64,000 nt of DNA. Source: a virus. Positions 9,677-12,169 of the stretch are shown here, piece after piece (within the stretch, counting starts at the first letter, position 1; the number at the start of each line of letters is the position of its first letter). The stretch lies in IMG/VR virus record IMGVR_UViG_3300021478_000022, positions 1-64,000 of that record. One strand, given 5' to 3'. A model generated the notes under the pieces. That model saw only the letters and a list, made by a program, of their open reading frames with translations, made no database searches and was not told the origin of the DNA. Position numbers and translations under genes: made by a program.

Positions 9677-9823
9677 CTAATCCTCCCGCTCGCACTCATA
9701 CGACGGCCACACCCAGGCGTGACCGTCCGTGCACAGCACCACCAGATGGTTCTCGCCCTCGCAGAGCAGTTCCCCGCGCTTCTTGAGACGGACGTTGCGG
9801 ACGTAGATGCGCAGGTCGTTCAT
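9677..9823 (-). CDS. Very small protein after the cytosine methyltransferase
   Basis: The 48-residue protein begins at an ATG that overlaps the methyltransferase stop by four bases. It is mostly strand-like (LRIYVRNVRLK, ELLCEGENHLVVLCTDGHAWVWP). The coupling to the upstream gene supports it as real. The function is unknown. Confidence 0.62.
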   Translation of the reverse strand: MNDLRIYVRNVRLKKRGELLCEGENHLVVLCTDGHAWVWPSYECERED

Positions 9824-10605
9824 GGGGACTCCTTCACGGCTTCCATAATCCTTTCGCCCAGCCACTCGGCCACTTGCGGCACTACGGCGTTGCCGAGCCC
9901 TCTATTTCGGTCCACCCCAAAGGGAAGCCCATCAACCACTCGGTCCACACCGGGCTCAACGTTCCAGGAACCGTCTGCCCCATAGCCTTGAACTCCATCA
10001 AGCGGACCCACTGCGTAAGGGTGAGTCCAAAGCCGTTGCCATTGCCATGCTTCTGCTTGAATTGCTTGCGTCGGTCGAGCAATAGGGGCACGTCTCGACA
10101 GCCGAAGCCGCTGGCTGACGGTGTAGGCAAGAATGAACACCCGATCCCGGATATGGGGGGCACCAACGGCGGCAGCCGGAAGGCAATGCCACTCTGCATC
10201 CATCCCGAGCGAGGCCAAGTCTCCGAGAATTCGTCCCATTCCGCGAACAAGTAACTTGGCAACGTTTTCCACGAGGACGAAGCCCGGTCGTAATCGGCGA
10301 ATGATACGAATGTATTCGGCCCACAATCCCGAGCGCTCGCCACTGATGCCGTGTCGTTCACCTTGGACGTGGCCGGCCTTGCTGATGTCTTGGCAAGGGA
10401 AGCCGCCGCAGATGAGGTCGCATGACCAGTCGCCTTCGGGCGGGAAGGTCCGCACGTCATCATGGCGGGGCACGCTGGGCCAGTGCTTTTCAAGAACTCG
10501 CCTCGCGTAGGGGTCGATTTCAACTTGCCATGCACACTGCATTCCTGCTCTTTCAAGTCCAAGGTCCATCCCTCCTATGCCAGCGAACAGACTGCCGAAC
10601 CTCAT
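9820..10605 (-). CDS. DNA (cytosine-5) methyltransferase
   Basis: The 261-residue enzyme transfers a methyl group from SAM to cytosine C5 in DNA. Motif I is FGSLFAGIGGMDLG (residues 3-16). The catalytic motif IV is GGFPCQDIS with Cys71, motif VI is ENV at 113-115, the QxR-type motif VIII is IRDRVF near 152, and motif X is GLGNAVVP near the end. It is short, with a small target-recognition region. It lies right after the large terminase (ATGA overlap) and may protect phage DNA from host restriction. Another open frame overlaps most of it on the same strand. Confidence 0.92.
   Translation of the reverse strand: MRFGSLFAGIGGMDLGLERAGMQCAWQVEIDPYARRVLEKHWPSVPRHDDVRTFPPEGDWSCDLICGGFPCQDISKAGHVQGERHGISGERSGLWAEYIRIIRRLRPGFVLVENVAKLLVRGMGRILGDLASLGMDAEWHCLPAAAVGAPHIRDRVFILAYTVSQRLRLSRRAPIARPTQAIQAEAWQWQRLWTHPYAVGPLDGVQGYGADGSWNVEPGVDRVVDGLPFGVDRNRGLGNAVVPQVAEWLGERIMEAVKESP
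9882..10562 (-). CDS. Same-strand overlapping frame within the methyltransferase gene
   Basis: A 226-codon frame, shifted by +1 relative to the methyltransferase, stays open across most of that gene. Its C-terminal half contains SETWPRSGWMQSGIAFRLPP, FLPTPSASGF and SPVWTEWLMGFPLGWTEI. I recognise this combination from proteins annotated beside or across phage and bacterial cytosine methyltransferases. It may be a real dual-coded protein, or a by-product of conserved methyltransferase codons. The apparent first codon is a TTG without a clear ribosome site, so the true start is unknown. Confidence 0.4.
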   Translation of the reverse strand: MDLKEQECSVHGKLKSTPTRGEFLKSTGPACPAMMTCGPSRPKATGHATSSAAASLAKTSARPATSKVNDTASVASARDCGPNTFVSFADYDRASSSWKTLPSYLFAEWDEFSETWPRSGWMQSGIAFRLPPLVPPISGIGCSFLPTPSASGFGCRDVPLLLDRRKQFKQKHGNGNGFGLTLTQWVRLMEFKAMGQTVPGTLSPVWTEWLMGFPLGWTEIEGSATP

Positions 10606-12062
10606 ATCTGCCCCCTCCCCTCATAGAGCAAGATTGGTCCCTCACCCTCACCTTCCTTGCGGGTCGGTCTCAGGTCCTGCGCCATGAGGCACAGGTAGGC
10701 CAGCATGTCCACCATGTCGTCCTCCTCGCTACGCTCCAGCCCCGTGAAAGCCGCGAGCTGCGTCTTGAAAGGTTCCACCCATGGCGCGAAATCATTCGGA
10801 AGGAAGATGCGCTTGTTCTGACCCATGAGGACGGCAGGCTGAGCGCGGATACGCTTTGCGTGTTTGACGCTCCCAGGCTTGAGGCGCCGCACCTCTGGTA
10901 TCTCTCGGTGTCTCCGGCACTCGTTCGCTAGCGACGCCTGAAACCCGGACGCCTCGCATCCCACGAGGTTCGGTTTCCACTTCCTGCAAAATTCAGCCAG
11001 GTGAGGTACGACATGCTCCAGATCGATGCGCACGTTCAAAACATCCATGAGCAGGATCGTGTTGTCGGGCGTCAAGGCCCCGCAGCCCATCGCTGTGCAA
11101 TCCGCCTTGCCGTTCTCGCTCGTCGCCCAGTCCACAGCGATGATGAAAACCAATTCATCCTGCCGAAAGACCTTGCGCTGGTCCCCAATCGGAACGGCCC
11201 AAGCCTGCGCTCTCAGATCCCAAAAGAACGGCCACGTATCAGGCGTGAAACAGTCGCCCTTGAAATCCGACCAATCTCCCTCGTGCTGCCGGCGCTCTTG
11301 ATCCGGCATCTCTCCCAAGCTCTCTTCATATTCCTCCTTGTCCGTCGTCGGGTTGTCCTCCAGCTTGGCCGGTATCCATCGCCGCTTGCCACCCACCGGA
11401 GGCCCGCCCGTCGCTATCTCGAATCGCCTCTTGGTCCACGCATGCCCTCGACCGCCAGGCGTTGTGCTGCTCCGCATCCGCAGTGGTATCTCGGCTTTCT
11501 GTCCTTCCGCCGGCTTCCGCAAGCACCGATACAAGTACCTGTACTCGCGCTCGTCGAAGTCAGTCAATTCGTCGAAGCCTATAAACTGGTAGGCGGCGCC
11601 TCTGTACTTCTGAGGACCGTCCTCCATCGTGCCGAATGACAGCGTGGCCCCCGCTGGGAACCGCCATTTATGCGAAGTCCCATCCCAGCGCGCCTCCGTC
11701 GCATCGAGCCACCCATGCGCGCGCTCGATCAACCCTTCCGACTCCATTAGCTGGGTGAACGTCCGCCTGAAGAGGATGGCCGCATACTCCGGCACGTCCA
11801 CGAACTGGAGCGCCGCCATGAGGAGCGCGTCAGACTTGCCCCCTGCGGCTGCACCTCCATACATGACCTCCTTGACGTCTGCCAAAGACAGGAACTCAGC
11901 CTGCCGTGGATGGGGCTTGTGCTTGATCCACTGGTTCTCAAGGACTGTCCTGCGAAAGAGCGCCATGCGCCAAACCACCTTCTTGCAGTTGGCACACGAT
12001 GCCGTTCCCGATTTACGGCAAACTGCGCATAGCGATGATAAGACTAGCTCATTCCAGTCCAT
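10602..12062 (-). CDS. terL: Terminase large subunit
   Basis: The 486-residue packaging motor has an N-terminal ATPase with Walker A GAAAGGKS (about residues 70-77) and Walker B FIGFDE (about 160-165). The C-terminal RNase H-like nuclease starts at IIAVDWATSEN (Asp about 311) and ends with the acidic EEDDMVDML segment. The ATG at 12062 overlaps the stop of a small membrane-protein gene. It adds a cysteine pair (CAVC...CANC) before the usual start of the ATPase. A later ATG, before ALFRRTVLEN, is the alternative. The cytosine methyltransferase follows with an ATGA overlap. Confidence 0.93.
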   Translation of the reverse strand: MDWNELVLSSLCAVCRKSGTASCANCKKVVWRMALFRRTVLENQWIKHKPHPRQAEFLSLADVKEVMYGGAAAGGKSDALLMAALQFVDVPEYAAILFRRTFTQLMESEGLIERAHGWLDATEARWDGTSHKWRFPAGATLSFGTMEDGPQKYRGAAYQFIGFDELTDFDEREYRYLYRCLRKPAEGQKAEIPLRMRSSTTPGGRGHAWTKRRFEIATGGPPVGGKRRWIPAKLEDNPTTDKEEYEESLGEMPDQERRQHEGDWSDFKGDCFTPDTWPFFWDLRAQAWAVPIGDQRKVFRQDELVFIIAVDWATSENGKADCTAMGCGALTPDNTILLMDVLNVRIDLEHVVPHLAEFCRKWKPNLVGCEASGFQASLANECRRHREIPEVRRLKPGSVKHAKRIRAQPAVLMGQNKRIFLPNDFAPWVEPFKTQLAAFTGLERSEEDDMVDMLAYLCLMAQDLRPTRKEGEGEGPILLYEGRGQI

Positions 12063-12169
12063 CACTGACCCCCCACCCATACCCCCACCGCCACCCCCAT
12101 CACAAACGACCCCAGAAACACCAGGAGGATACCCAGCCACGAGGTCGAACACCAAGAGCTGTGTTTCAT
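12062..12169 (-). CDS. Small single-span membrane protein
   Basis: The 35-residue protein has one predicted transmembrane helix (WLGILLVFLGSFVMGVAVGV). Its ATG has AAGGAC about 8 bases upstream, and its TGA overlaps the terminase ATG as TGATG. The tight coupling supports it despite its size. The role is unknown; a holin-like function is possible but unusual next to a terminase. Confidence 0.6.
   Translation of the reverse strand: MKHSSWCSTSWLGILLVFLGSFVMGVAVGVWVGGQ

Follow-up and report, generated by a model that had tools for sequence, protein, structure and literature searches.

A second reading frame inside phage C5-cytosine methyltransferase genes is conserved as a protein and probably encodes the recognition part of the same enzyme

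The C5-cytosine methyltransferase gene adjacent to the terminase gene in a virus from the IMG/VR collection contains an overlapping +1 frame that is conserved and selected as a protein. The window analyzed here consists of 64,000 nucleotides, namely positions 1 to 64,000 of the record IMGVR_UViG_3300021478_000022, which has 78,687 bases in total. The +1 frame very probably provides the DNA-recognition part that is missing from the methyltransferase frame, and we consider it likely that the locus encodes a nested C5-methyltransferase of two polypeptides, namely a catalytic subunit (hereafter alpha) and a recognition subunit (beta), although expression, binding and activity are inferred.

The alpha gene occupies positions 9820..10605 on the minus strand (261 aa, ATG start), and its start overlaps by 4 bases the stop of the gene for the terminase large subunit (10602-12155, minus strand; PHROG 979). 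The alpha protein is readily recognized both in Pfam (PF00145, E=1.1e-43) and among the PHROGs (PHROG 363, E=1e-77). The beta ORF (9882..10562), also on the minus strand, encodes 226 aa when read from TTG 10562, with alternatives of 193 and 192 aa from the ATG codons at 10463 and 10460; it matches PHROG 1008 ('DNA methyltransferase', E=1.6e-21) and has no match in Pfam. The initial annotation, in which no strand was named, had reported a frame of 226 codons at 9882-10562 that overlaps the C5-methyltransferase gene in the +1 register and includes the segments WPRSGWMQSG, LPTPSAS and WTEWLMGFPLGW. The frame is present in the sequence and contains all three segments, and the accompanying suggestion that its product comes from a family found beside or across phage C5-methyltransferases agrees with the match of all 20 +1 proteins of alignment A2 to PHROG 1008.

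The length of the frame turned out to be weak evidence in this GC-rich window and was rejected as such: the longest +1 run in the gene is 230 codons, whereas synonymous shuffles average 128 (p=0.034), and a long overlapping frame is unremarkable on its own because the window contains 79 ORFs of at least 180 aa. Unlike length, the comparative evidence is decisive. A family HMM built without the window scores the window beta at 179.7 bits (E=3e-54), above each of 1000 synonymous recodings of the window gene (1000/1000; 85.3 +/- 10.9 bits, maximum 122). Using beta as the query for a tblastn search, we obtained matches in 116 phage records; in the first ten loci inspected, the match was in the +1 frame of a C5-methyltransferase in 10 of 10 cases, including a Vibrio phage gene with a GC content of 47%. 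A search for IMG/VR relatives with the +1 protein alone produced none. Circularity was removed by using only the main-frame alignment to collect relatives, 80 of them viral and 80 genomic. Since these 160 loci were the top hits of an alignment of this methyltransferase class, proportions among them do not estimate how frequent a feature is among methyltransferases in general. The +1 profile detects the +1 protein in all 80 viral loci, and in every one of them (80/80) the +1 score is above that of each of the 60 synonymously recoded versions of the gene, with means of 155.8 bits for the real and 61.1 bits for the recoded genes. For the canonical Dcm/HhaI-type enzymes of the genomic set, real and recoded sequences do not differ (z about 0).

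The distribution of stop codons delimits the selected region. Among 140 genes of this class, main-frame columns 60-180 contain 20 stops in the +1 frame compared to 494 expected from recoding, an approximately 25-fold depletion, and columns 100-180 contain 2 compared to 320 expected; no such depletion is detectable outside the overlap, in columns 0-40 and 220-240 of the same genes. This pattern indicates that the selected +1 frame spans main columns from about 57 to 219. In 48 independent pairs, the main-frame pS is 0.438 in the overlap versus 0.599 outside, with the lower value in the overlap in 39 of the 48, whereas non-synonymous divergence shows the opposite trend (0.197 in the overlap versus 0.117 outside), as expected because the third positions of the main frame are the second positions of the +1 frame. 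For the canonical pairs (n=4), the respective pS values are 0.658 and 0.668. The synonymous constraint on the main frame is strongest in columns 90-164, which correspond to the WPRSG module (pS 0.32-0.44), and in columns 195-209, which correspond to the motif IX segment, and is weaker in columns 165-194 than on either side. Thus, the proposal in the initial annotation that both frames may be under selection is supported by the recoding scores, the depletion of stops and the suppression of synonymous change in the overlap. Of the two outcomes that had been named there as refuting, stops in the +1 frame of relatives are about 25-fold depleted in columns 60-180, and neutral evolution of the alternative frame is not borne out, given the reduced synonymous change of the main frame within the overlap.

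The alpha protein meets the criteria of PF00145, i.e., it contains motifs I, IV (PCQ), VI (ENV), VIII and X and shows the fold of the catalytic lobe. The catalytic lobe, with motifs I-VIII (GGFPCQ, ENV, RDR), comprises residues 1-166 (10108..10605, minus strand) and is modeled by AF2 with pLDDT mostly 87-98, apart from residues 71-90, where it drops to about 60; the Foldseek alignments of alpha with M.HhaI and M.HaeIII span 167-175 columns (E about 1e-15). Residues 167-229 (9919..10107, minus strand) occupy the position of the target recognition domain and motif IX of canonical enzymes and have no recognizable fold in the AF2 model, with pLDDT of about 68 at residues 161-170 and then mostly 43-50 up to residue 230, and with a single low-confidence helix (residues 180-194) within the recognition region. 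The alignment of the alpha profile with canonical enzymes ends at motif VIII. The two motif X helices (GLGNAVVPQVAEWLGERI; 9829..9915, minus strand), at residues 231-239 and 243-259, are modeled with pLDDT of 81-95, and their canonical counterpart in alignment A4 is KQIGNSV. An in-frame target recognition domain and motif IX were not found in alpha by AF2 modeling, profile comparison or motif classing, and the corresponding region is predicted, on the strength of the model, to be disordered.

A motif IX-like segment, LSPVWTEWLMGFPLGW (9912..9959, minus strand), is located in the C-terminal part of beta. In a chromosomal enzyme, L121, the family profile of this segment finds the motif IX that lies in frame (RRLTPLEAERLQGFPDNWT; i-Evalue 0.0013), and in the Streptomyces enzymes it matches the in-frame stretch in which LPTP repeats are followed by motif IX and then by motif X (full-sequence E=6e-10 for L152). 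A motif IX pattern, which was written by hand after the alignments had been viewed, occurs in the +1 frame of 125 of 161 genes, compared to 6.7 expected on recoding. When loci are classed by the frame of motif IX, 129 have it in the +1 frame only, 25 in the main frame only and 3 in both; the window falls in the class without in-frame motif IX. Because motif IX is found in beta, this protein is most likely a second subunit of the same enzyme rather than an unrelated neighbor. A direct profile-profile comparison of beta with the canonical enzymes gave only a weak signal that covers 16 columns, exactly at motif IX (probability 1%, E=0.05). The remaining conserved part of beta is the module FxxYDxxxSSWKT ... 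WPRSGxMxxG ... LPTPSAS (10110..10325, minus strand; alignments A2 and A3), which overlaps the alpha motifs up to VIII; no known homologue of the WPRSG module was found, and a search of PDB with the +1 profile gave no match. For beta alone, AF2 yields no confident fold (pLDDT 61, pTM 0.28), and a Foldseek search of PDB with this low-confidence model gave no match, a comparison that is meaningless. PHROG 1008 (329 positions) is annotated as 'DNA methyltransferase', yet the +1 protein lacks the catalytic motifs.

Three gene layouts are found among the relatives. In the nested layout, represented in the window and nearly all viral loci, alpha contains motifs I-VIII and X, and beta contains motif IX. 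In the split layout, the main frame does not extend past motif VIII, and motifs IX and X are encoded by the continuing +1 frame (Gordonia phage Camerico, L005; Mycobacterium phage Ryadel, L007; Embleya, L015; Micromonospora, L116; a Bacillota MAG, L131). Finally, the Streptomyces and related enzymes (L152, L155, L169) have a single-frame layout, in which the main frame itself encodes motifs IX and X. Such a series is what would be expected if the +1 protein were the recognition half of the enzyme. In the canonical enzymes, motif IX is in frame and there is no +1 protein. In the three Streptomyces loci, the LPTP repeats, motif IX and motif X are all in the main frame, and a +1 ORF with the WPRSG module persists (recoding z of 3.7-4.8). 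The retention of this module in the +1 frame despite a main-frame motif IX in several Streptomyces goes beyond a simple two-subunit model and remains unexplained.

Several further features of individual loci were observed. In L018 (2001-3191) and L024 (2001-3077), the variable region is enlarged and contains repeated (W/L)PTPTASD units in the +1 frame and repeated ADA(D/N)G-like units in the main frame; possibly, these repeats are multiple recognition modules. Five loci from Enterobacteriaceae genomes (L199 and L202-L205) represent a divergent second methyltransferase subfamily (MTAYYNEIDPFAA...) with the same nested +1 ORF, which mostly ends in LNPAHSRWLMGFPPEWD or a close variant. In the E. 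coli PCP07014 prophage (L189, 3003-3764), the methyltransferase is annotated as a pseudogene with an internal stop, and the +1 frame has a stop at nearly the same bases, so that both halves appear to have been lost together. Two C5-methyltransferase genes are located close to each other in the E. coli PT62 prophage (L188; 44-1030 and 3002-3739) and in the Embleya plasmid (L015; 963-2181 and 2950-3489).

Shine-Dalgarno sequences of at least 5 nt precede +1 start codons (main columns 25-66) in 42 of 138 genes, compared to 8.2 +/- 2.7 expected, an approximately five-fold enrichment, and the same test for the +2 frame finds 0 genes; the exact significance is overstated because some of the loci are near-duplicates. 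In the window, a Shine-Dalgarno-like AGGAGG (10571..10576, minus strand), which also encodes part of the GIGG of alpha, is located 8 nt before TTG 10562, and no Shine-Dalgarno sequence was found upstream of the ATG codons at 10463 and 10460. TTG 10562 is thus the best candidate for the beta start, with a weak start signal, and which start is used remains open. In six loci (L188, L189, L004, L008, L011 and L012), the +1 ATG is in the same position, 4 nt past the alpha start; L188 and L189 have an in-frame stop immediately before this ATG, so their +1 product cannot stem from an upstream frameshift. A single conserved +1 start codon for the whole family was considered and rejected, given that the start position varies along the gene.

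Under the scheme that we propose, alpha would be translated from the main frame and would comprise the lobe for AdoMet binding and catalysis (motifs I-VIII) plus the motif X helix at the C-terminus, while lacking motif IX and a folded target recognition domain; the +1 frame, from a start inside the alpha coding sequence, would give a beta protein of about 190-226 aa. Beta, with its WPRSG/LPTP module and motif IX, would act in trans as the small, DNA-recognizing lobe, and DNA would be methylated by the alpha-beta complex. The production of beta in this phage, its start site, its binding to alpha and the activity of the complex are all inferences, without peptide, ribosome or activity data.

Several other explanations have to be considered. 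The +1 frame might be a mere by-product of the conserved methyltransferase sequence combined with GC-rich codon usage, and part of the +1 resemblance is indeed inherited from the main frame, as recodings alone average about 61 bits. Real genes nevertheless outscore recoded ones in all viral loci, stops are depleted, synonymous change is suppressed only in the overlap, and the canonical enzymes show none of these signals; this reading is already contradicted, and we give it practically no credence. Far less easily dismissed, even if still unlikely, is +1 ribosomal frameshifting out of alpha, which would fuse the catalytic lobe to the recognition segment without a separate beta. The order of the frames permits such a fusion of motifs I-VIII with the target recognition domain and motif IX, in the split relatives the +1 frame runs on into motif X, and frameshifting is among the options put forward for Corndog genes 6 and 7 (PMC4351075). 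However, selection on the +1 frame is apparent at main columns of about 57-160, upstream of any shift site that would be useful after motif VIII, a fusion at that point would lose motif X in the nested class, and the starts with Shine-Dalgarno sequences are enriched in exactly the +1 frame.

It is also conceivable, if marginally less plausible than frameshifting, that the +1 product is genuine and selected but serves the phage in some separate function, e.g., in regulation or anti-restriction, and is not a methyltransferase subunit. The lack of a known homologue of the WPRSG module would fit this possibility, as would the recoding signal in the three Streptomyces loci that already have motif IX in the main frame. 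Against it stand the motif IX content of beta and its near mutual exclusivity with an in-frame motif IX, the split and single-frame relatives that tie the +1 protein to the enzyme, and the invariable presence of a C5-methyltransferase together with the +1 protein in the loci inspected. We therefore favor the interpretation of beta as the recognition subunit of a nested enzyme.

C5-methyltransferases composed of two polypeptides are already known, and the nested arrangement in the window belongs to this kind. Among them are M.EcoHK31I from E. coli (YGGCCR) and M.AquI (CYCGRG). The alpha and beta polypeptides of M.EcoHK31I are reportedly 309 and 176 aa long (Lee et al., in 1995), with the beta ORF located inside alpha in another frame, and both polypeptides are said to be required in vitro. 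In M.EcoHK31I, the large subunit contains motifs I-VIII and X together with a predicted target recognition domain, and the small subunit contains only motif IX; in M.AquI, the split is located before motifs IX and X, both of which are in the small subunit (PMC3404938). In Cluster O mycobacteriophages, two adjacent genes encode the methyltransferase halves, and the coding potential of the overlap and an internal ribosome binding site have been noted already; the authors left undecided whether there are two products, a frameshift or splicing (PMC4351075, 2015).

The window resembles M.EcoHK31I in having motifs I-VIII and X in alpha and motif IX in beta and in the containment of the +1 ORF (9882-10562) within a gene in another frame (9820-10605). 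The window enzyme differs in being a phage enzyme encoded beside terminase, and in that the predicted target recognition domain of M.EcoHK31I is in the large subunit whereas the corresponding region of the window alpha looks disordered. The likeness is one of layout and motifs, and involves no sequence comparison; M.EcoHK31I itself was not identified among the Enterobacteriaceae genome loci inspected. Corndog gp6/gp7 and the Cluster O genes (Ryadel, Dylan) share with the window the encoding of one C5-methyltransferase in two overlapping frames, but their alpha stops after motif VIII and motif X is in the second frame, whereas the window alpha retains motif X and its beta is fully nested. M.AquI is likewise a C5-methyltransferase of two polypeptides, but with motifs IX and X in the small subunit, whereas motif X of the window is in alpha; this type of split is met by L005, L007, L015, L116 and L131 and not by the window. 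No description of the nested family as a whole was found in the literature searched. Judging from that literature, what appears to be new is the evidence that this large family is nested as a rule, with selection on both frames and with the missing motif in the second one.

The nested arrangement is usually annotated as a single gene. In Virus Rctr197k (L002, 2318-2998), Mycobacterium phage DosHalletts (L194, 1372-1917) and Microcystis phage Mwe-JY08 (L001, 392-652), annotation covers the +1 (beta) frame and leaves out the overlapping methyltransferase frame; most other records show the reverse, with the methyltransferase frame annotated and the beta frame not. Should the proposed scheme be correct, many phage methyltransferases are annotated with half of the enzyme missing, which would make single genes appear inactive when expressed. 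It would also explain the database proteins with the motifs WPRSGM...LPTP...EWLMGFP that are found in or beside methyltransferase genes, and would resolve the question left by the 2015 Cluster O paper.

More broadly, we lean, with only modest conviction, toward the view that most short phage and prophage C5-methyltransferases are obligate alpha-beta pairs, with the two halves encoded by the same bases in two frames and with a hitherto unrecognized recognition domain (the WPRSG/LPTP module), and that, of all conserved same-strand gene overlaps in prokaryotes and their viruses, theirs is one of the most widespread. Overlapping genes usually encode unrelated proteins. Here, if the proposal holds, each frame would encode one half of a single enzyme, and with the two halves on the same bases, catalysis and DNA recognition would evolve under joint constraint.
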